This document shows, one piece after another, positions 21,780 to 31,931 of a stretch of DNA of 64,000 nt (its first letter is position 1; every line of letters begins with the position of its first letter). Position numbers and translations under genes: made by a program. Location: contig NZ_CP023344.1 of the NCBI RefSeq assembly GCF_002310495.1, positions 1,364,001 through 1,428,000 of the forward strand, in the 5' to 3' direction. The notes beneath the pieces were generated by a model that was not told where the DNA came from, ran no database searches, and saw only the letters and a list, made by a program, of their open reading frames with translations. Source of the DNA: Nibricoccus aquaticus. Its GTDB lineage: Bacteria > Verrucomicrobiota > Verrucomicrobiia > Opitutales > Opitutaceae.

Positions 21780-21872
21780 CAGTCTTTCGACCTTCGGCCT
21801 CAGTCGTTCGGCCTTCCGATTTCGGCCTTCCGCCCACTGGTCATTCCGACGGTCGCCTCGACCGTCGGCTAC
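21780..21872. repeat. Word-repeat block plus reverse-oriented GTAG hairpin
   Basis: 21780-21833 carries four words of the CTTTCGACCTTCGGCC/GTTCGGCCTTCCG type, followed by a single CCACTGGTCATTC. At 21846-21872, read on the minus strand, GTAG is followed by arms CCGACGGTC and GACCGTCGG. Its TAG is the stop codon of the minus-strand TonB receptor (21869-21871). Confidence 0.6.
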
Positions 21873-24292
21873 TCCCCTCCCATCCCCTCATCGAACTGCA
21901 TCTCCTCGCCCCGCCGCTTCGCGTCGCCGCCAAACTGATGCACCACGCCGAAGTACACCACACTCGCCCCGCGCCGCATCGTCGTGTCGCTTGAGAGCGA
22001 CGCCGTATCGAGCACCGTGCGTCCCTTGAACGTCCCGAACACATCCGACACCGTCAGCACAAACGCCGTCCGGTTCGTCGCCGCGTAACGCGCCCCCAGA
22101 TTCGAAATCGCCATCGGCCGCCGCTCGCCCTGCGGCGTCAACCGCGCCGCGCGATAACCCGACGTCAGCTGCAACGACAGCTTCTTGTTCACTTCCCACG
22201 CCGTGTTCAGTTTCGCATCCCACGCGATCTCCGCCCGCGTCCCGGCAAAACCCAGATTCGCCGCATCGATCTCCTCCCGATAAATATTCCCTCCGAAATT
22301 CAGCGATAATCCCGGTAGCGGCTTCGCCGTCGCACCCAACTCCACCCCTGTAAACCGGCTCGTCGCCAGATTATCGCTCGTCGTCAGCAGCACACCGTTC
22401 CCCAGATCGCGCGTCACTTCCGTGATCCCGTCGTAACGATACCGCTGATAAACCGACGCCAGATACGTCGCCCCATCGCCCCGATACTGCCACCCCGCCT
22501 CGATCGAGTGAATATCCTCCGGCTCCAGATCCGGATTACCTGCGCGCAGATTCTGCGGATCGCTGTACTGCGGATACGGATTCAAATCCCGCTGATCCGG
22601 CCGCCGCACGCGATGACTGTAGCTCAGCTTCAACTGCTGTGCCGCAGTCAGATCGTAGCTCGCATGAACGCTCGGATAAACCCGCGCATAATCCTTCTCC
22701 CGCACGATCCCCGCCGTCCGCTGGTCCGCATCCGTCAACGCCTGCTCGAACCGCAGCCCGCCCTGCAACCCCACCGGCCCCACCGCCGCCGCATACGTCG
22801 CGTAAGCCGCATGCACCTGCGATTCGTACACGAACCGGTTCGTCGTCTGCACATCCACGACCCACTGCTGCGTCGCATTGTCCAAAAAACTCCCGCGAAA
22901 ATCCACGTCGCTAGCCTCCGCCAGCAACGCGTACCCGGTTTCCAACTTCGTCCCGTTCGCGAACGGATGCACATAGTCCGCTTTCAACTCCGTCTCCCGG
23001 CTCGTCTCCTTCACCACCGTCCGCTCGTGCTCCTCCGCCCCGCCCGGCGTCCGGAACCGGTTCGCATAAAAATCGCCGCCTTCCTCCGTCTCGCTCTCGT
23101 GCCCCAGCTCCACCACTAGCTTCCGCCCACCGCCGTCAAAGCCGTGGCTCAGCGCCAGCTCCGCCTCGTACTCCGTCTCCTCCTCGTCGCCCGTGCGCAG
23201 CCGGTCGTAATCCTCTGTCACTGCGCCCGCCCCGTCGCGATTCACCGTCGTCTGCGTCGAAGCCCACGCACGATCCCGCGTCCCGTAATTCACCGCCGCC
23301 GTCAGCTCCGTCTCCTTCCCAAACCGATACGCCCCGCCCGTCTCCAGCGTCGTCGAATCGAAACTCCGCTCCTCGTCCGTCCGCGACACCGAACTCCCCG
23401 TCGTCTGCCCGTTCGCATCGCGTTGCGTCCGCGACCGCTCCACCTCGAACGGCCGCTCCTCATGCCGCTGCGAGACCGACGCAAACACATCGAACGGTCC
23501 CGGATTGTACGTCGCGTACAAACTTCCGTTGTACCGACCTTCGTTCCCCACATTCGCCCGCGCCGTCGCCGACCAGCCCGGCTTCCCGCCGTCCTTTAAG
23601 ATGATATTGATGATCCCGCCCGTCCCGTCCGGCCGGTATTTGGACGACGGATTCGTGATTACATCCACGCGCTCGATCCGGTCGGCCGACAACTGCTCCA
23701 ACGCCTCTGCCTGATTGCTGTTCATCTGCGCCGAGCTGCGTCCGTTGATGAGAATCGTCACATTCTGGTCCCCGCGCAGACTCACCTCGCCTTCGACATC
23801 CACCTGGATCGACGGGATGTTCTGCAACAGATCGCCCGCCGTGCCCGTCGTGCTCGCGACGTCCTTGCCCACATCGTACGTCTTCCGGTCGATGGAATTA
23901 TAAAACGCCTCCCGCTCCGCCGACACCTGCAACTTCTGCAGCATGATCGTCTCATCCTCCGCCAACATCAGCCGCCCCGCATCCGCCACCGGCTTCTCCG
24001 CCGTCAACTCCACCGCCGCCGTGTCGCCCGCGTAACCATAAGCGAGCACGTACGCTCCGGGTTTCAACTCTCCCGCCGCAAACTCCCCGCGCGCATCCGT
24101 CGACACCGTCTTCACCAGAGCCCCCGTCGCCCGCTCCTGCACCGTCACCACCGTGCCCGCCACCGGCTCACCCGCCGCATTAAAAATCCTCCCGCCGATC
24201 CTGCCCGCCGCGCCCGTCTGCGCCTCCACAGTCAGGCCGGCAACGGCAAATAGCAGGGAAGACAGGAGCGTGATTCTGGTCCGCAATAACAT
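21869..24292 (-). CDS. TonB-dependent receptor with carboxypeptidase-like N-terminal domain
   Basis: The 807-residue outer-membrane protein has a signal peptide (about 1-24; LLSSLLFAVAGLTVEAQ), a carboxypeptidase-regulatory-like domain (about 28-105; GGRIFNAAGEPVAGTVV, a CarboxypepD_reg fold), a plug domain (about 110-225; DLLQNIPSIQVDVEGEVSLR, ILINGRSSAQ) and a long barrel of the outer-membrane beta-barrel 3 type. The closing strands include VYFGVVHQFGG. There is no aromatic terminal residue; the chain ends in a short acidic tail. It would import an unknown ligand. No transporter or enzyme lies beside it. The Met at 24292 was chosen over an upstream alternative because the signal peptide begins there. 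Confidence 0.9.
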   Translation of the reverse strand: MLLRTRITLLSSLLFAVAGLTVEAQTGAAGRIGGRIFNAAGEPVAGTVVTVQERATGALVKTVSTDARGEFAAGELKPGAYVLAYGYAGDTAAVELTAEKPVADAGRLMLAEDETIMLQKLQVSAEREAFYNSIDRKTYDVGKDVASTTGTAGDLLQNIPSIQVDVEGEVSLRGDQNVTILINGRSSAQMNSNQAEALEQLSADRIERVDVITNPSSKYRPDGTGGIINIILKDGGKPGWSATARANVGNEGRYNGSLYATYNPGPFDVFASVSQRHEERPFEVERSRTQRDANGQTTGSSVSRTDEERSFDSTTLETGGAYRFGKETELTAAVNYGTRDRAWASTQTTVNRDGAGAVTEDYDRLRTGDEEETEYEAELALSHGFDGGGRKLVVELGHESETEEGGDFYANRFRTPGGAEEHERTVVKETSRETELKADYVHPFANGTKLETGYALLAEASDVDFRGSFLDNATQQWVVDVQTTNRFVYESQVHAAYATYAAAVGPVGLQGGLRFEQALTDADQRTAGIVREKDYARVYPSVHASYDLTAAQQLKLSYSHRVRRPDQRDLNPYPQYSDPQNLRAGNPDLEPEDIHSIEAGWQYRGDGATYLASVYQRYRYDGITEVTRDLGNGVLLTTSDNLATSRFTGVELGATAKPLPGLSLNFGGNIYREEIDAANLGFAGTRAEIAWDAKLNTAWEVNKKLSLQLTSGYRAARLTPQGERRPMAISNLGARYAATNRTAFVLTVSDVFGTFKGRTVLDTASLSSDTTMRRGASVVYFGVVHQFGGDAKRRGEEMQFDEGMGGE

Positions 24293-24372
24293 GCCCAGTA
24301 CGACGCACCTCCTCTGCAAAAGTGGCGCGGTCCCAACACAAAATCCTTCCCACCCCCTCCGTCACCCGTTCG

Positions 24373-26526
24373 TCACTTCGCCCCCACCACACCTTCCGCT
24401 TCCCTCAACAAGATCCGGGCAAACGCATAATCGAACCAAAACCCCTGCACCGGCGTCCCCCGCCCGCGATCCATCCCGCTCTTCAACCGGTTCTCCAACA
24501 ACTCCCGCGCCGTCAGCAAATCGCCCCGCGCCTCTTCCCGCTGCCCCAGCCGCTCCCGCGCCATCGCCAGGATCGCCCCCGCCGCCAGCGCCCGCGACGC
24601 ATTCTGATCCGGTGCCGCCATGCTACGCCGCGCCCACTCCACCGCCGCCGCGTCGTTGCCTTTTCGATACTCCAGCAAAGCCAGCGCCATCGCCCGCCAC
24701 GCCGCTTGAAAAACATCCCCCGCTTTCACCGACTCCTCGTACGCACGCGTCGTGTCCTCCGCCATCGGCCTCAGCGCCGCGAGCGCCGCGCCATCCACCG
24801 GCCCCAGCAGGCTGATCTTCACAATCCGGTCCGAAAATGGCGACGCCACCCGCGCGAACCGCGCCACCGCCTCGTCACGAAAACGCCGATACCCGTCCTG
24901 GTCCCCCGCTTCTAGTAACGCCGGCCCGCACCGCAGATAATCCAGCGTGATCACGTCCACGCCCTCCAGCGCGTCCACCTCCAGAAGCTGCGAAAACCGC
25001 CCCGCCGCCTCGCTCCACCGGTTCTCCAGCGCATGCCACTCGCCCACCGCGCGGATCACCGCCGCGCCCTCCAGCGAGGGCTGCTTCAAAGAAATCTCCT
25101 TCAACATCGCATCCGCCTCCGCAAACCGCTCCTGGCTCACCAGCAACGCCGCCTGCGTGATGCGTTCCCGCGTCTCCGCCTCCAGCCTCAACCGCGCCTG
25201 CTGCTGCTCCGCCTTGAGCGCGCGTTGATGCGCCGCCCGTTCCTTCAAAAACAACCACGTCGAAGCACTCATCCCAAACACCAGCGCCAGCGCCACCGCG
25301 CCACCCGCGATGAACACCACGCGATTCCGCCTCACCAGTTTTTGCAACCGGTACGCCCAGCTCGGCGGACTCGCCACCACCGGTTCGTTGTGCAGATGCC
25401 GCTGCACATCCAGCGCCAGCCCGTTCGCCGTTTCGTACCGCCGCGCCCGGTCCTTCTCCAGCGCCCGCATCGAGATCCAGTCCAGATCCCCGCGCACCGA
25501 CGACAACAGCCGCGCCGGATCGGTCAGCCGTGTATTCGCAACACGGATCAATTCCGGCAGCGCCAGCGCGTTCAACCGCGCCGACGGCCGCGCCGGCTCG
25601 CGCTCGCGCAGCGTCTTCCGCATTTCATCCAGCCCCGACGCCGCCAGCTCCTGCGGATCGAACGGTGTGCGCCCCGTCAGCAACTCGTACAGCAACACGC
25701 CCAGACTATAAATATCCGTCCGCGTATCGATATCCACGCCGCCCATCTGCGCCTGCTCCGGGCTCATGTACGCCGGCGTCCCGATCAGCTGCGCGTACGT
25801 CGTGAACAACTTGTCCGTCAGCCGCGCTTCCGTCGCCTTCGAGATCCCGAAATCGATCACCTTCGGCACCGCCTCGCCGTCATGCTCTTCGACGAGCACG
25901 TTCGATGGTTTGATGTCTCCGTGGATGATTCCCTTCTGATGCGCGTGCTGGATCGCGTGACAGATCTGGATGAACAAATCCAACCGCTCGCTCACCCCCA
26001 GCCGGTTCCGGTCGCAGTAGTCCGTGATCTTCACCCCGCGCACCAGCTCCATCACGAAATACGGCGGCCCCCGGTCCGTCGCGCCCGCATCGAACACCCG
26101 CGCGATATTGGGATGATCCATCATCGCCAGCGCCTGCCGCTCCGCTTCGAACCTCGCGATCACGCTCTTCGTCTCCATCCCGAGCTTGATGATCTTCAAC
26201 GCCACGCTCCGCCGCACCGGCTCCTCCTGCTCGGCCAGATAAACGACACCGCAACCGCCCTCGCCGATTTTCTGCACCAGCTTGTACCGCCCGATCTTCG
26301 CCCCGATCGCCTCCTCGCCCGGCAGCTTCGAGCGGATCAACGCCCCGCCCTCTTCAAAAAACGCCTCCCCTTCCTCGCCCGCCGCCAGCAGCCCGTCCAG
26401 CCGCGCGCGTAACTCCGGCTCGTTCACGCACGCTCTATCTAAAAACGCCTTCCGCTCCGCCGCCGTCCGCCGCTCGCGCGCCGCCTCGAACAAATCTTCC
26501 TCACGCTGGGCGGCGGCATTCTTCAT
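24373..26526 (-). CDS. Ser/Thr protein kinase with TM segment and TPR-like C-terminus
   Basis: The 717-residue protein has a PknB-type kinase domain (about 80-350): a glycine loop in GEGGCGVVYLAE, the ATP Lys in VALKIIKLG, the catalytic loop IIHGDIKPSNVLV, DFGISKA as the metal motif and TPAYMSPEQA as the P+1 loop. The usual HRD is HGD here, so it is a non-RD kinase. One TM helix lies near 402-420 (VFIAGGAVALALVFGM). The extracytoplasmic part is helical and TPR-like. It is the downstream partner of the ECF sigma gene at 26555, 28 bases away, an arrangement common in Planctomycetota and Verrucomicrobiota. Confidence 0.92.
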   Translation of the reverse strand: MKNAAAQREEDLFEAARERRTAAERKAFLDRACVNEPELRARLDGLLAAGEEGEAFFEEGGALIRSKLPGEEAIGAKIGRYKLVQKIGEGGCGVVYLAEQEEPVRRSVALKIIKLGMETKSVIARFEAERQALAMMDHPNIARVFDAGATDRGPPYFVMELVRGVKITDYCDRNRLGVSERLDLFIQICHAIQHAHQKGIIHGDIKPSNVLVEEHDGEAVPKVIDFGISKATEARLTDKLFTTYAQLIGTPAYMSPEQAQMGGVDIDTRTDIYSLGVLLYELLTGRTPFDPQELAASGLDEMRKTLREREPARPSARLNALALPELIRVANTRLTDPARLLSSVRGDLDWISMRALEKDRARRYETANGLALDVQRHLHNEPVVASPPSWAYRLQKLVRRNRVVFIAGGAVALALVFGMSASTWLFLKERAAHQRALKAEQQQARLRLEAETRERITQAALLVSQERFAEADAMLKEISLKQPSLEGAAVIRAVGEWHALENRWSEAAGRFSQLLEVDALEGVDVITLDYLRCGPALLEAGDQDGYRRFRDEAVARFARVASPFSDRIVKISLLGPVDGAALAALRPMAEDTTRAYEESVKAGDVFQAAWRAMALALLEYRKGNDAAAVEWARRSMAAPDQNASRALAAGAILAMARERLGQREEARGDLLTARELLENRLKSGMDRGRGTPVQGFWFDYAFARILLREAEGVVGAK

Positions 26527-26554
26527 GCGAACATCTCGGTCTCTTTCGCGCGCC

Positions 26555-27133
26555 TCACTTCTGCGCGCGGATCGTCTGGAAAAGCCACGCCTTCGCGTAC
26601 GCCCAGTGCCGCTCCACCGTCCGCTCCGTCACACCCAGCGTCTCTGCCACTTCCTGATTCGTCAGCCCGCCGAAAAATTTCAACACCACCACCCGCGACT
26701 TCTCCGGATCTTGCGCCTGCAGCTGCTGCACCGCGTCGTCGATGAGCAACACCTTTTCCTCCGGCGTCGTCTCCGCGATCTCCAGCTCATCCACATCGAG
26801 CAACCGCTGGTTGCCCCCGCGTTTCAGCCGCGACTTCTTCCGCGCATTCTCGATCAGGATACGCCGCATCGCCTCCGCCGCCGCGCCAAAAAAATGCGCC
26901 CGGTTCTCCCACCGGCTCTCCCCGCCATCGAAAATCCGCAGCCACGCCTCATGCACCAGCGCCGTCGGCTGCAACGTCTGCCCCGCCTGCTCGTGCGCCA
27001 TCCGCACACTCGCGTGCCGCCTGAGCTCGTTATAAACCAGCGGCAGCAACTCCTCCGACGCGCACTCTCCGCGGCCCACGGCATGAAGAATCTGGGTGAT
27101 CTCGGAAAACGAGGCGGCAGCAACGGGGTTCAT
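26555..27133 (-). CDS. ECF-type sigma factor (TIGR02999-like), partner of Ser/Thr kinase
   Basis: The 192-residue protein has a region 2 with LVYNELRRHASVRMAHE and the helix ending in ALVHEAWLRI, and a region 4 with FGGLTNQEVAETLGVTERTVERHW as the helix-turn-helix. The sequence type, with ENRAHFFGAAAEAMRRIL between the regions, is that of the planctomycete/verrucomicrobial ECF group linked to protein kinases. No anti-sigma gene is present; control by the adjacent kinase through phosphorylation is plausible by analogy. The Met at 27133 was chosen because the upstream extension (to 27292) has no family similarity. Confidence 0.92.
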   Translation of the reverse strand: MNPVAAASFSEITQILHAVGRGECASEELLPLVYNELRRHASVRMAHEQAGQTLQPTALVHEAWLRIFDGGESRWENRAHFFGAAAEAMRRILIENARKKSRLKRGGNQRLLDVDELEIAETTPEEKVLLIDDAVQQLQAQDPEKSRVVVLKFFGGLTNQEVAETLGVTERTVERHWAYAKAWLFQTIRAQK

Positions 27134-27329
27134 AGCGGGGGGCGTGGGGTGACGACGCGAGGCGGGGATCTCTACAGGAACCTGTCGCGGGGTAATCGGC
27201 GACGGCCCGAGCCTGCTCCGCGACGAACCCCAGTCAAGCAACCGGAGCCTTTCCGTACGCTCCCTTCGCTTGACGCTAACGTAATCCCGCAACGCTCCGC
27301 GGCCGCGTGCCTACAACTCCATTCGCCTT

Positions 27330-27741: not shown

Positions 27742-28638
27742 ATGAACGGATACGAAATCTACGACGAACAACAGCCAGTAGCCTGGTTCCGCGGTCAGCC
27801 CATCTACGCCGCCTACCTGATCGTCATCGTCTTCGTCATATCGATGATCGCCACCGCAGCGTTTCTGTTTGCCAACGCCCACGGCACGCTGGGATTGCTC
27901 GTCTTCGACAGCACGCACGTCCTCCAGGGACAAATCTGGCGATTGGTTACCTATGGATTGGTCAACGATCCAAGATCCTGGCTGAGCTTTCTTGTCTCGA
28001 TGCTCGTCATTGCGACGCTAGGCCGTGAGCTGGAAAAATTCCTCGGCTGCAAAAAATTCCTCTGGTTCTTCGGCGCAGCCTATCTCCTCAAGCCAGTGCT
28101 ATTCACACTTGGCGGATTCTGGATTCCTTCTGGCTTCAACGGTCAACCTGGCGGCTTCGCCGTCCTGATCGCGTTCGCAACGCTATATCCGAACGCCATG
28201 TTCATGTTCAATCTCCTCGCCAAGTGGGTCGCGGTCATTGCCATCGGGATCAGTGCTCTCATCGCCCTCAGTAACCGCGACACCGTCAGCCTCATCTCCC
28301 TGCTCGCCACTTCCGGCTACGCCTTCGCCTTCGTCCGCTATCAACAAGGTCACTTCACACTCCCCAGCCTGCGCTTCCCCAAACGCCAGCCCAAGTTTCA
28401 AGTCCTCCCCGGCGGTCGCGACACTCCACCCTCCCGCACCTCCTCATCCTCGTCATCCTCTTCGGGAAAAACCTCCGCCCCTTCCGCGCCACGCTCCGCT
28501 CGCGACACCACGACCGCCGAGATGGATGCCCTCCTCGACAAGATCGCCCGCTCCGGCATGGCCAGCCTCACCCCCGACGAACGCGCCCGCCTAGCCGCCG
28601 CCGCCAAAGTCCACACCCAACGCAAACTCGGCCGCTGA
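27742..28638 (+). CDS. Rhomboid-fold membrane protein, apparently non-catalytic
   Basis: The 298-residue protein has about six TM segments in the first 210 residues. The first loop carries GQIWRLVTYGLVNDP (about 63-77), the rhomboid-type WR motif. Helix 2 has ATLGRELEKFLGCKKFLWFF. Where active rhomboids have GxSG, this one reads GQPGGFAVLIAFATLYPN, so the serine is missing. After a Ser-rich linker, the last 45 residues (MDALLDKIARSGMASLTPDE) match the small C-terminal domain found in rhomboid relatives of this type (DUF6576). It probably acts as a pseudoprotease scaffold, but this is inferred. A GTAG element follows the stop. Confidence 0.82.
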   Translation: MNGYEIYDEQQPVAWFRGQPIYAAYLIVIVFVISMIATAAFLFANAHGTLGLLVFDSTHVLQGQIWRLVTYGLVNDPRSWLSFLVSMLVIATLGRELEKFLGCKKFLWFFGAAYLLKPVLFTLGGFWIPSGFNGQPGGFAVLIAFATLYPNAMFMFNLLAKWVAVIAIGISALIALSNRDTVSLISLLATSGYAFAFVRYQQGHFTLPSLRFPKRQPKFQVLPGGRDTPPSRTSSSSSSSSGKTSAPSAPRSARDTTTAEMDALLDKIARSGMASLTPDERARLAAAAKVHTQRKLGR

Positions 28639-28652
28639 CCCGCGCGTCCCCT

Positions 28653-28715
28653 GTAGGGCCGGACTTCACGTCCGCTTCGCCGCGCGCCCTTGGAGGGATG
28701 ACCTCCGTGTCGTCC
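28653..28715 (+). repeat. GTAG hairpin and TGGAGG element after the rhomboid-like gene
   Basis: 28653-28675 is GTAGGGC followed by arms CGGAC and GTCCG around TTCAC. 28691-28715 is a TGGAGGGATGACCTCC unit followed by GTGTCGTCC, nearly repeated at 50207-50231 and, more distantly, at 55189-55213. Confidence 0.65.
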
Positions 28716-28734
28716 ACTTAACCTCCTATCTGCG

Positions 28735-29541
28735 CTACCGCCCCGTCCCCTTCAACTGCGCCGCATACCGCTCCACCGCCGCTTCCGGCACCACCAACCG
28801 CCACCCCGCCCCCGTCTTCCGCAGATCAAGATGCACCTGTCGCACCGATCCCGCCGCATTGCGCAACTGCACCACAGCCCGCCGCATGTCTCCCGCCTCT
28901 TCCTTCACCGGAAAAATCCGCGTCCCCTCCAGCGGCACATCCTTCGCCGCCATGAAAGCCACCAGTTCCTCCGCGCTCGCATAACGCGTCCGCGTCTCCA
29001 CCGGCAAACCCGCCAGCAACTCCGCCGCCTTCCGCTGCGCCGCATCATCCAGGACGATGCTCCCCATCAGCACATCCGTGTCCCCGCCCGCCGCCGCCCA
29101 CAACGCCGTCTCCACCGCAGCCACCGGCGTCGCGTATCCGACATTCCGCCACGTCTCGGACGGCACGATTTCCTTCTCGATGTCTAGCGGCACCGCCGGA
29201 TCCGCCTTCGGTTTTTTCGCCACCTTCGGCCTGCTTTCATCCACCGATTTTTTCAACTCCGCCACTTCGGCGCGCAACCGGGGCAGCGCCTCGCGATCCG
29301 CGCGCAGTCGCTCCGACTCGGCTTCGTTCGCCGCCGCCAAGAGCTTCTCCCGCTCGCTCGGAAGCGACAGCCCCTTCTCATAAATTAGTCCTCCCTTTTG
29401 CGCCGCGACATCATCGCGCAACCGCGCTGTCTCCCGCCACCGAACCACCGTGCCCGCAGTCACCGCCACCGCCGCGACAACGAGGACACCCCAAACCAGC
29501 CACCGCACGACGCAGCCCAGATCAAAACCAGTTGTTCGCAT
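28735..29541 (-). CDS. Membrane-anchored coiled-coil protein of unknown function
   Basis: The 268-residue protein has one TM helix (about 11-30; VVRWLVWGVLVVAAVAVTAG) and a coiled coil (about 38-100; AREALPRLRAEVAELKKSV region). A C-terminal mixed domain (about 130-268) contains TPVAAVETALWAAAGGD, RYASAEELVAFMAA and a beta-rich end, VRQVHLDLRKTGAGWRLVVPE. The last part has the form of a small NTF2-like or periplasmic sensor domain, but I do not recognise the family. Its start overlaps the stop of the sigma-TonB fusion gene by 20 bases, so it is translated from the same transcript and probably works with that protein at the inner membrane. Confidence 0.8.
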   Translation of the reverse strand: MRTTGFDLGCVVRWLVWGVLVVAAVAVTAGTVVRWRETARLRDDVAAQKGGLIYEKGLSLPSEREKLLAAANEAESERLRADREALPRLRAEVAELKKSVDESRPKVAKKPKADPAVPLDIEKEIVPSETWRNVGYATPVAAVETALWAAAGGDTDVLMGSIVLDDAAQRKAAELLAGLPVETRTRYASAEELVAFMAAKDVPLEGTRIFPVKEEAGDMRRAVVQLRNAAGSVRQVHLDLRKTGAGWRLVVPEAAVERYAAQLKGTGR

Positions 29542-30853
29542 CGCCGTCCTCCCTGTTGAGCGTGTAGACGATCGGCACCGTCATCTGCACATTAACCGGC
29601 ACGCTGGCCTTCTTGCCCGGCTCGAAAACCCAGCTTTGCACCGCCGCCACGGCCGAATCAGCGAACAACTCATGCGAAGCCTTCACCGCTTCCGCACTTT
29701 TAACCTTTCCATCGTCACCGACCAAAAATCTCACGGTGACGACGCCCTCCAACCCAGAATTCCGCATCTCACTCGGAAATTTAGGCGCAGTTCGGCTGAC
29801 CGCTTTCGGCACCACATCCAGCTCCGCCAGTTTGAACACTCGTTTGCCCTCCGCAGCATCGGGCAACGGCGCCTGCAACCGCGCCCGCGCTGCCACATTC
29901 GCCGCCAGCTCTCGCTTCAACACGTCAGCCTCCGTCTCCAGCCGCGCAAACTCCACATCATCCTTGCGCAGCTCCCGCACCGCCGCAGCCACACGCACGC
30001 GCTCGCGTTTGTCCTCCTGCAGTTTCTTCAACTCCAGCTGACGCACCGCCAGCTCCTCCCGCTCCCGGCGCAACGCCGCCTCCGCATTTTTCTGCACGAA
30101 CAATCCCGCCGTTCCTCCCGCGAGAATCACGCCCGCCAGCCCGATCTGTAATTTTGTCATCCCCATAAAAGTAACCCAGCTCACCGCTCCCGCACTCGCC
30201 GCAGCACCCCCGGTCAGCACCGCCCCCGTCACGCTCACCGCCAGCCCCGCCGGAGCTGCGGCAAACGCCTGCCCGCTCAGCGCCACCGCCAGTGCCGCCG
30301 ACGTCGAAGTCACCCCGCGTCGCACCAGCAGCCCGCGCAGTTTCTCCACCGCCCGCTCCACCCGCATCCGCGCCGCATCCTCACTCACTGCCAGCGTCCG
30401 CCCGATCTCGCCAAACGCGCGTCCTTCGAAAAACCGCAGCAACACCGCCTCGCGTTCGCGTTCCCCCAGCGCGTGCAACGCATCGTCGATCACCGGCCAC
30501 AACCGCTCCCATTCCGCCTCTCCGCCCTCCGTCGGCGCCTGTTCGTTCAGTTGCATGACCGCGTCCTCCCGCTTCCGCCGCCGCTGCTCGCTCCGCACGA
30601 CCTGAACCGCCGCATAACGCGCGCTCGTGTAGAGCCATCCCGCGAGCACAGGCCGCCCCCGAAGCGATCCCGCTTTCCGTGCCAGATCGGCGAATACACT
30701 TTGCGCCACATCCTGCGCCAGATGCGCGTCGCCGCCGACCTGCCGCAGCGCCGCGTTGTACACCAGCCCGAGATGCCTCCGCACGAGTTCGGCAAAAGCC
30801 TCCCCCGATCCGTTCTCAGCGTACTCACGAAGCAGTTCGGCATCATCACGCAT
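29522..30853 (-). CDS. ECF sigma factor fused to membrane segments, coiled coil and TonB C-terminal domain
   Basis: A 443-residue single reading frame. Residues 1-175 are an ECF sigma factor: region 2 is FAELVRRHLGLVYNAALRQV with WLYTSARYAAVQVV, and region 4 is LGEREREAVLLRFFEGRAFG with SEDAARMRVERAVEKLR. Two hydrophobic stretches follow at about 183-225 and 232-252 (IGLAGVILAGGTAGLFV), then a coiled coil at about 255-325. A TonB C-terminal domain spans about 345-440: APKFPSEMRNSGLEGVVTVR, VGDDGKVKSAEAV, AVQSWVFEPGKK. So a sigma factor is tied to the inner membrane with a TonB-like domain predicted in the periplasm. It could signal between the outer membrane and transcription. No anti-sigma or TonB receptor gene is adjacent. 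Confidence 0.88.
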   Translation of the reverse strand: MRDDAELLREYAENGSGEAFAELVRRHLGLVYNAALRQVGGDAHLAQDVAQSVFADLARKAGSLRGRPVLAGWLYTSARYAAVQVVRSEQRRRKREDAVMQLNEQAPTEGGEAEWERLWPVIDDALHALGEREREAVLLRFFEGRAFGEIGRTLAVSEDAARMRVERAVEKLRGLLVRRGVTSTSAALAVALSGQAFAAAPAGLAVSVTGAVLTGGAAASAGAVSWVTFMGMTKLQIGLAGVILAGGTAGLFVQKNAEAALRREREELAVRQLELKKLQEDKRERVRVAAAVRELRKDDVEFARLETEADVLKRELAANVAARARLQAPLPDAAEGKRVFKLAELDVVPKAVSRTAPKFPSEMRNSGLEGVVTVRFLVGDDGKVKSAEAVKASHELFADSAVAAVQSWVFEPGKKASVPVNVQMTVPIVYTLNREDGDANNWF

Positions 30854-30974
30854 GGTGGTTTCTGACCACTAGCAGCCACCATTTTCAAAACCGAACAAAG
30901 AATCTTTCAGCCAGTCTCCTCCCACTGCCCCGCATTCTTCACCGATCTCACAACAGCTCCGCCTGAACTGCCCG

Positions 30975-31931
30975 TCATCCGCGTTCCCCGCGCTTCTTCG
31001 TCACGATCCCGCCGGTAACAGGCCCGTTCTTTTTTACCTCTTCCACGATCTGCCGCGTCACCCGCACCGCCTTGCTCTTCGGCTGCACGTTGAGCCCGCT
31101 ATTCTCGCGCGCCGCTCGCGTCACCTCCGCGCCGAAGAACAGAATAGCGCACGAATAATAAATCCAGATCAGCAGCGCCACCAGCGAGCCTGCGGCTCCA
31201 TACGTCGACGCCACTGTCGAGTGCGAAAGATAAAACGAAATACCCAGCCGCCCGACGCTGAAGAGCAGCGCCGTCACAAACGCCCCCTGCCACACATCGC
31301 GCCACCGCAGATGCACGTCAGGAAGAAACTTAAACACCAGTGCGAATAACACCGTGATCACGCCCAACGCCACCACGAGATCCACCCCTTGCAGCACGAT
31401 CGGCGACACCGCCATGTAAGAGTCCGCAAATTTCACCAGCGACGAAATCGCCGTCGTCAACACGAGCGACACCAGCAGCAGAAAGCCCACGGTCAGCACC
31501 ATCGCGAACGAGATCAGCCGCCGCACCAGCAGCACCACGAATCCGTTCCGATTCGGCTTCGTCATCACGCCCCAAATCTCGTTGAGCGATTCCTGCAACT
31601 GCCCGAACACCGTCGTCGCGCCGATCAGCAGCACCACGAATCCCGCCGCCATCGAAAACCAGCTCGTGTTCTCCGGCCTGCTCGCCGCCACCGCATCCTC
31701 GATTACTTTCGATCCCTCCTTGCCGACCAGCTGGCTGATCTGATCTGACAACTGTCCCGACGCCGCCTCCTGCCCAAAGAAAAATCCCGCCACCCACACC
31801 GCAATGATCGTGATCGGTGCGAGCGAGAACAACGTGTAGAAACTCACCGCCGCCGAGTGCTTGAACACATCGTCGTCGAACCAGCTCTTACCGGCGCGAA
31901 ACAAAATTCTGTCCCAGCGTTGCATAGGCAT
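30975..31931 (-). CDS. YihY/BrkB family inner membrane protein
   Basis: The 318-residue protein has six predicted TM helices and the YihY pattern: DDVFKHSAAVSFYTLFSLAP near the first helix, the conserved GATTVFGQLQESLNEIWGV in the middle, and SHSTVASTYGAAGSLVALLIW near the last helices. Family members were once called ribonuclease BN; that activity is not supported, and they may be lipid or solute transporters. Met starts at 31931 and 31925 are equivalent. It is divergent from the beta-propeller gene at 32108. The C-terminal 60 residues are basic and cytoplasmic. Confidence 0.88.
   Translation of the reverse strand: MPMQRWDRILFRAGKSWFDDDVFKHSAAVSFYTLFSLAPITIIAVWVAGFFFGQEAASGQLSDQISQLVGKEGSKVIEDAVAASRPENTSWFSMAAGFVVLLIGATTVFGQLQESLNEIWGVMTKPNRNGFVVLLVRRLISFAMVLTVGFLLLVSLVLTTAISSLVKFADSYMAVSPIVLQGVDLVVALGVITVLFALVFKFLPDVHLRWRDVWQGAFVTALLFSVGRLGISFYLSHSTVASTYGAAGSLVALLIWIYYSCAILFFGAEVTRAARENSGLNVQPKSKAVRVTRQIVEEVKKNGPVTGGIVTKKRGERG

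Follow-up and report, generated by a model that had tools for sequence, protein, structure and literature searches.

A conserved fusion of an ECF sigma factor and a TonB C-terminal domain, encoded with a partner gene, in the Opitutaceae

The DNA analysed, referred to as the window, is a stretch of 64,000 nucleotides of the Nibricoccus aquaticus genome (assembly GCF_002310495.1, contig NZ_CP023344.1, positions 1,364,001 to 1,428,000). Its minus strand encodes an extracytoplasmic function (ECF) sigma factor that continues, in the same open reading frame (ORF), through two hydrophobic stretches and a long predicted helix into a TonB C-terminal (TonB_C) domain. A second gene, the partner, lies directly behind this fusion gene in the same orientation, and a promoter-like motif lies just upstream (Table 1). 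The sigma-TonB_C fusion is a real, conserved variant for which no earlier description was found in the open-licence literature; in the parts of the papers that were available, neither PMC2729926 nor PMC11658791 concerns a fusion of this kind.

Table 1. Features of the fusion locus, in window coordinates
Feature	Position	Strand	Evidence
Fusion gene (sigma, transmembrane segment, coiled coil, TonB_C), 443 aa plus stop	29522..30853	minus	ORF list, Pfam, AlphaFold
Sigma region 2 (residues 23-92)	30578..30787	minus	Pfam PF04542, E 7.6e-10
Sigma region 4 (residues 122-173)	30335..30490	minus	Pfam PF04545 / PF08281
Uncharged Ala-rich stretch (residues 181-233) with superfamily motif TSTxAALxxxLxxQAxxAAPAGLA	30155..30313	minus	Alignment
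Second hydrophobic stretch, likely membrane helix (residues 235-254)	30092..30151	minus	Hydrophobicity, AlphaFold (low confidence to 251)
Coiled-coil-like helix (residues 255-327)	29873..30091	minus	AlphaFold helix 240-327
TonB C-terminal domain (residues 338-432)	29558..29842	minus	Pfam, AlphaFold, Foldseek
C-terminal Trp-Phe	29525..29530	minus	32 of 52 fusions end in WF
Partner gene (268 aa; 20 nt overlap with the fusion gene), with an N-terminal membrane helix, a coiled coil and an NTF2-like domain	28735..29541	minus	Alignment, models
NTF2-like domain of the partner (residues 131-263); Trp131 a candidate contact for the WF tail	28753..29151	minus	AlphaFold, weak Foldseek, group-specific conservation
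Promoter-like motif, ending 14 nt before the ATG	30868..30901	minus	35.1 bits, only strong site in the 64 kb window

Translation of the fusion gene, which starts with ATG, showed no internal stop, and Pfam placed Sigma70_r2 at residues 23-92 (E 7.6e-10), Sigma70_r4 at residues 125-173 (4e-11) and TonB_C at residues 356-432 (E 1.1e-18), all above the Pfam cut-offs. The single uninterrupted frame from sigma regions 2 and 4 into a TonB C-terminal domain, which a first-pass annotation had proposed from the DNA letters, was thus confirmed. Regions 2 and 4 with no other sigma domain is an ECF-type make-up, and the NCBIfam model TIGR02937 was also above its cut-off. The two hydrophobic stretches of that annotation are likewise present, the first comprising 53 residues of which none is charged, and both are marginal, with best 19-residue Kyte-Doolittle means of 1.63 and 1.82, respectively. 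Pro201 in the first stretch was invariant in all 28 aligned fusions. The AlphaFold model, for which the input alignment had 28 rows, gave a mean pLDDT of 79.8, with values of 91-97 in the ten-residue blocks from 341 to 430, which form the TonB_C fold, and a confidence below 50 for residues 220-251. Residues 240-327 are likely to comprise the membrane helix plus a coiled coil, the latter read off the long predicted helix. Foldseek matched the model to ECF sigma factors and its TonB_C fold to receptor-bound TonB, both in the FoxA-TonB complex (6i97_D; TM-score 0.87 by target, rmsd 1.4 Å) and in the BtuB-TonB complex (2gsk_B; TM-score 0.86, rmsd 3.4 Å). An Rfam scan of 28500-31200 gave no match up to E 1. 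The AxxAAPAG linker of the fusion resembles a signal peptide, and cleavage by signal peptidase was considered; it was rejected because the invariant Pro201 occupies the +1 position of the best AxA site, where type I signal peptidase is not known to accept proline, and because the motif occurs throughout the superfamily of sigma factors described below.

Fifty-two distinct ORFs with sigma and TonB_C parts were gathered from all loci, among them two that run off their loci (L139 and L095) and one with a broken frame (L037). In the 28 that were aligned, the identity to the window's protein was 36-52%, and Pfam found TonB_C and sigma region 4 in all 28 and region 2 in 27. This first alignment was made without L050, which lies on the contig of L033, L037, whose frame is broken near the end, and L054, which has no TonB part. 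When the 28-row alignment was used as query, 47 of the 252 Opitutaceae genomes had a match at E <= 1e-125. At least 51 matches reached TonB_C, and six other rows ended short. In this count of taxa, a check suggested in the first-pass annotation and here done by hand, sigma and TonB_C stand in one chain in at least 46 of the 252 genomes and 21 genera, the former number being a lower bound because six candidates were scored per genome. Long matches in two additional genomes, G088 (residues 3-443) and G140 (1-392), and a second one in G125 had been obtained in an earlier search. None of the matches reported from outside the family reached the TonB part, either in an order sample (273 genomes, 1e-60) or in a phylum sample (387 genomes, 1e-70), where the strict thresholds and the four to six candidates scored per genome would miss fusions with unrelated sigma factors. 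None of them extended past model position 349, by which point the TonB_C fold has barely begun. One of the fusion ORFs, L095, is an open frame of 1018 aa with another domain order, in which the sigma part and TonB_C are followed by more than 100 additional residues.

The partner, of about 260 aa, was found in full or short form directly after the fusion in all 48 of the 48 loci whose sequence continues for more than 900 nt behind the fusion gene. Its AlphaFold model had a pLDDT of at least 91 in every ten-residue block from 131 to 260. Homology was found between the partner and the C-terminal half of sister membrane sigma factors (L058, E 2e-54, model positions 1-256; L030, 1.6e-45; L062, 3.8e-40), and roughly the first 100 residues of the partner match the fusions in their helix and coiled coil. 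Consequently, the sigma factor and its partner appear to carry the same membrane module. A sequence search of the PDB with the partner gave a best E of 0.022, with weak matches to FtsB at 0.086-0.11. The partner in L149 (199 aa) has the helix and coiled coil followed by a different C-terminal part of about 90 aa that looked ExbD-like by eye; nothing in that part was above the Pfam cut-offs, so that Pfam lends the likeness no support.

Trp-Phe (WF) forms the exact C-terminus of 32 of the 52 fusions, preceded by a tail of variable length. Among 2067 ORFs of at least 200 aa in the fetched loci, many of them spurious, 32 ended in WF and every one was a fusion. The state of the partner was tabulated for the 48 fusions with more than 900 nt behind the gene, which leaves outside the table L140_62 (short partner), L021 (WF, contig ends), L139 and L095. 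All 31 fusions with WF were followed by a full partner with the NTF2-like domain, while the 17 without WF comprised six with a full partner and 11 with a partner in which no such domain was detectable (Fisher p 5.5e-7, before any correction for kinship). Ten of these 11 partners end shortly after the coiled coil and the eleventh is that of L149. Trp131 of the partner was retained in 29 of 31 systems with WF, in three of the six with a full partner and no WF, and in two of 13 NTF2-like domains fused in cis. This pattern suggests that the WF tail docks on the partner's NTF2-like domain. On a tree of 49 rows, the 48 of the table plus L140_62, WF required nine changes and the partner state seven, and the association is weakened by kinship since independent events on the tree are few. 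The possibility that WF is a by-product of gene overlap was rejected: in 15 of 24 loci, of which 14 have WF, the partner starts 1-6 nt after the stop, a distance that depends on the author's choice of start codon.

A bipartite motif, TTTTTGTKCGRTTT - about 7 nt - GGCGGSTGCTAT, was found shortly upstream of the ATG in most fusions. The next best site in the window scored 17.8 bits. The motif reached at least 24 bits in 37 of the 52 fusions and was below 7 in five, but the fusions score high by construction since the promoter matrix was trained on the upstream regions of 31 of them. Among sister genes outside the training set, 23 of 55 reached 24 bits. In 46 loci, 49 of the 52 sites of at least 24 bits lay ahead of superfamily sigma genes, a count that includes the training sites and comes from loci chosen around such genes. 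Of the other three strong sites, one was located about 200 nt before the L157 fusion, whose start codon is doubtful, one immediately before a TonB_C-like lipoprotein in L145, and one some 190 nt before another such lipoprotein in L140. The maximum in shuffled loci (one shuffle each) was 15.0. Sister genes of the Nibricoccus genome scored 18.5-20.0 (L002, L003 and L004), 6.2 (L006) and far lower (L005). A pattern search of that genome with up to two mismatches returned two matches, the fusion and L002, versus three in the reversed control, and such searches yield hardly anything more than the exact site of the fusion itself. In the majority of the 31 training sites, the distance from the end of the -10-like part to the ATG is about 10-18 nt, so these mRNAs may be nearly leaderless. 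Autoregulation of the fusion from this conserved putative promoter would be the natural expectation for an ECF sigma factor.

The sister sigma factors, of which the Nibricoccus genome has at least five, have long open frames after the sigma part with no in-line TonB_C match. Across relatives they share the linker motif given in Table 1 and a lysine ahead of the helix. Their outside parts vary; a Pfam search of 57 sisters gave SLBB, TPR and DUF4878 once each, and single checks of two sisters gave SLBB for L047 and a sub-cut-off DUF4878 for L058. Both are domains of extracytoplasmic type and were counted in favour of the envelope-sensing reading given below.

TonB-box-like segments were sought with a weight matrix for the stretch before the plug, built from 17 receptors of the Nibricoccus genome picked by eye from 30 (that genome has 47 plug matches in all), and applied to the part after the sigma domain; some segments had been spotted by eye before the matrix was built. 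Five of the 52 fusions carried such a segment, with scores of 13.4-22.9 compared to a best of 11.8 in the control set (176 proteins) and 12.8 in the shuffles (1040). All five lack WF (5 of 20 versus 0 of 32, Fisher p 0.006).

These results led us to a reading to which we give about an even chance of being correct, that the fusion is a membrane-tethered, self-activating ECF sigma factor that senses across the envelope by means of a periplasmic TonB-type docking domain. It starts from what can be read directly from the sequence, namely the domain order, the conservation, the gene pair, the association of WF with the NTF2-like domain and the common promoter-like motif, and extends to a topology, binding partners, proteolysis and autoregulation that we infer. 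The sigma part would be cytoplasmic and held at the inner membrane through the helix at residues 235-254, with the coiled coil and the TonB_C domain in the periplasm. TonB_C would act as a docking module for a TonB-box-type peptide of an outer-membrane receptor or another envelope protein and would not energise transport. The fusion and its partner may assemble through their shared membrane-helix and coiled-coil module, with the C-terminal Trp-Phe of the fusion docked on the NTF2-like domain. A change in docking would free or expose the sigma part, the likeliest route being stepwise proteolysis of the kind described for IutY, and the sigma part would then direct transcription of its own operon at the conserved putative promoter. 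The IutY precedent makes proteolytic release plausible; the Nibricoccus genome has two matches to M50 proteases, the RseP type, and two to S41 proteases, the Prc type, whose presence says nothing about their substrates.

Several observations weigh against this reading, 1) the assignment of the partner's NTF2-like domain is weak, its Foldseek matches being weak and mostly of NTF2-like type, and the best of them, the sole match below E 0.001, is a lipid-bound toluene-tolerance protein, 2) the matrix scan of the 52 fusions found no TonB-box-like segment in the window's protein or in most of the others, 3) a receptor-like ORF, detected with a profile from 30 receptor plugs of the Nibricoccus genome, was present in only nine of 40 regions, at varying distance and strand, 4) no FecR-like or other anti-sigma domain matched in Pfam at E up to 0.01 in any of 28 fusions, 5) the motif was under 24 bits in 15 of 52 fusions, and the pattern search of the Nibricoccus genome with up to three mismatches gave four matches versus three in the reversed control, 6) neither hydrophobicity nor flanking charge decides the topology of the fusion, both stretches being marginal, and the partner's helix has positive charges on both sides, with more on the C-terminal side, and 7) six fusions without WF still have a full partner, and, among independent pairs on the tree, five that differ in the partner agreed in direction in 3.4 cases on average with none opposite (sign test p 0.125-0.5) and six that differ in WF agreed in 3.3 cases and were never opposite (p 0.125-1).

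A possible, if tentative, alternative keeps the tethered sigma factor and the periplasmic TonB_C domain and treats the latter as a protein-protein module of general use, whose ligand would be the fusion's own partner, a neighbouring TonB_C-like lipoprotein or some other envelope protein, with no role for an outer-membrane receptor. The scarcity of receptor-like ORFs would be expected, and a TonB_C-like protein occurs near the gene pair in nine of the 40 regions, preceded by a strong promoter-like site in L140 and L145, by a weaker one in L166 (20.8) and by one of 13.9 in L150, which is less than the shuffled maximum. Moreover, the Nibricoccus genome has 24 TonB_C matches over the cut-off versus eight ExbD matches, and several of the ORFs look, by eye, secreted and devoid of a TonB-type helix, so many of these domains may do something else. 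However, the TonB-box-like segments in five fusions and the receptor-bound TonB conformation of the model point to TonB-box-type ligands, and only one of four lipoproteins tested passed the Pfam cut-off for TonB_C.

The topology raises a second alternative, which we consider unlikely, that both stretches span the membrane and that TonB_C and the coiled coil, then cytoplasmic, act directly on the sigma part to regulate it. TonB_C would be outside with a single helix or with a hairpin and one more helix, and inside with two helices. The 53 uncharged residues of the first stretch are compatible with a helix (modelled at 204-231), their hydrophobicity is near that of the second stretch, and an outside C-terminus is not favoured by the charges that follow the second stretch. 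On the other hand, TonB_C is, to our knowledge, known solely as a periplasmic domain, the partner shares the module, has a single N-terminal helix and would have to be oriented in the same way, and a hairpin plus a third helix, equally possible, would put the domain outside again. An outside location is favoured because TonB_C works there, a sister protein has SLBB and the box-like segments resemble periplasmic segments of receptors.

It is very improbable, and mostly refuted, that the fusion is a real TonB energy transducer that powers receptors via ExbB and ExbD, with the sigma factor incidental. The TonB_C domain and fold are what such a protein would have. However, the S-x3-H motif of the TonB membrane helix was found around the second hydrophobic stretch in only one of the 52 fusions, and there at the edge of the region, while it is present in three TonB proteins of the Nibricoccus genome, which lie near ExbD genes (at about 0.5 kb for two and about 2 kb for one). 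With S-x3-H missing in 51 of 52, the fusion does not look like an energising TonB, and in a search for ExbD the nearest match lies about 90 kb away. An assembly or sequencing error that joined two genes, or a recent functionless accidental fusion, is refuted by the 52 distinct fusion ORFs, 28 of them aligned at 36-52% identity to the window's protein, by the occurrence of the fusion in at least 46 of the 252 family genomes, and by the conserved domains, partner, tail and upstream motif, and nothing was found in its favour.

The envelope-sensing reading departs from the first-pass annotation, which had suggested that one protein could combine the roles of TonB, anti-sigma factor and sigma factor and report the state of a receptor directly to RNA polymerase, perhaps after proteolytic release. 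The sigma, membrane and receptor-facing parts fit the anatomy of the protein, while an energising TonB role and an anti-sigma domain were not supported by the results given above. Direct reporting by a single protein is not supported as written, given the partner in all 48 loci and the few regions with a receptor-like ORF.

The conserved neighbours seen by eye were the TonB_C-like protein and, in eight of 40 regions, another sigma/regulator pair; the clustering of neighbours was otherwise dominated by antisense or spurious ORFs. Small proteins with a lipobox-like start and a divergent TonB_C-like domain were located at L140:4310-4891, L145:14612-15163, L150:8254-8892 and L166:7856-8422. The nearest receptor in the window (21869-24319) is about 4.4 kb from the partner gene and belongs to a minus-strand row (21869-27292) of a TonB-dependent receptor, a Ser/Thr protein kinase and a PF07638-type ECF sigma factor. 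The window is preceded, at a distance of 3-5 kb, by a cluster of several TonB_C domains in two ORFs (G000:C1:1358900-1361017), and a receptor plug accompanies it at 1355199. A classical cell-surface-signalling receptor also exists in the genome, since L185 has an STN signalling domain (Pfam 1.9e-7). The gene at 27742-28638, which converges on the fusion operon, encodes a rhomboid-like protein, below the Pfam cut-off, with a DUF6576 end; it is perhaps not a protease because the GxSG serine seems, by eye, to be missing.

A broader proposal, which we regard as rather doubtful, is that a whole superfamily of tethered, self-activating sigma factors in Verrucomicrobia shares one membrane module and promoter type and exchanges the outside domain. 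The fusion branch would read TonB boxes directly and carry receptor engagement to RNA polymerase without FecR, and its C-terminal Trp-Phe would clip to the co-encoded NTF2-like partner, in some lineages swapped for a built-in TonB-box decoy. If the envelope-sensing reading is true, a TonB-type domain senses rather than powers, and the path from receptor to gene shrinks from three proteins to the receptor, the sigma factor and one partner, with no FecR. The superfamily, with its sigma part, AAPAGLA linker, helix, variable outside domain and common motif, would then form a class of modular envelope sensors whose read-out is ready-made, in which the conserved motif offers testable promoters and the WF tail and Trp131 offer single-residue tests. 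One tethered protein and one small partner may thus relay a message from the outer layers of the cell to its genes.

Compared with known systems, the fusion has the same C-terminal domain family and fold as TonB but differs in its N-terminal sigma factor, the lack of S-x3-H and a predicted long helix in place of the linker, which is Pro-rich in TonB. Systems of the FecI/FecR type, such as the Fox system, also signal from a receptor to a sigma factor through both membranes but, in the part of the source available, consist of three separate proteins in which the signalling domain of the receptor contacts the anti-sigma factor, without TonB_C (PMC11637429). VreA, of the VreA/VreI/VreR (PUMA3) system of Pseudomonas aeruginosa, has a TolA/TonB-type C-terminal domain according to a homology model and provides a precedent for such a domain within cell-surface signalling with an ECF sigma factor; as far as the available portion describes it, this domain belongs to a periplasmic protein of its own that also has an STN-type signalling domain, and the sigma factor and membrane regulator are separate (PMC2729926). 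ECF48, ECF52 and ECF53 resemble the fusion in their C-terminal membrane helices, in the outside domain of ECF52 and in the expected proteolytic release, but they are actinobacterial and have a zinc-finger part, and the accessible sections of the 2022 review do not mention TonB_C in them (PMC8999054). The same sections describe IutY as the sole ECF sigma factor with experimentally characterised activation through proteolysis of a fused extension (PMC8999054). IutY of Pseudomonas putida (ECF243) is a single polypeptide with a cytoplasmic ECF sigma factor, one membrane segment and a periplasmic domain, and its sigma part is released through the action of Prc and RseP (PMC5411451; PMC8999054). The periplasmic part of IutY is an anti-sigma domain and its gene lies beside the receptor gene iutA, whereas the fusion has TonB_C and a separate partner. 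With no FecR-like domain and a receptor-like ORF in nine of 40 regions only, the fusion is not of the IutY family but may work like it. Its sigma factor, probable membrane helix and TonB_C domain, for which a periplasmic location is predicted, likewise form one chain, and the logic that leads from the state of an outer-membrane receptor to the sigma factor would be the same.

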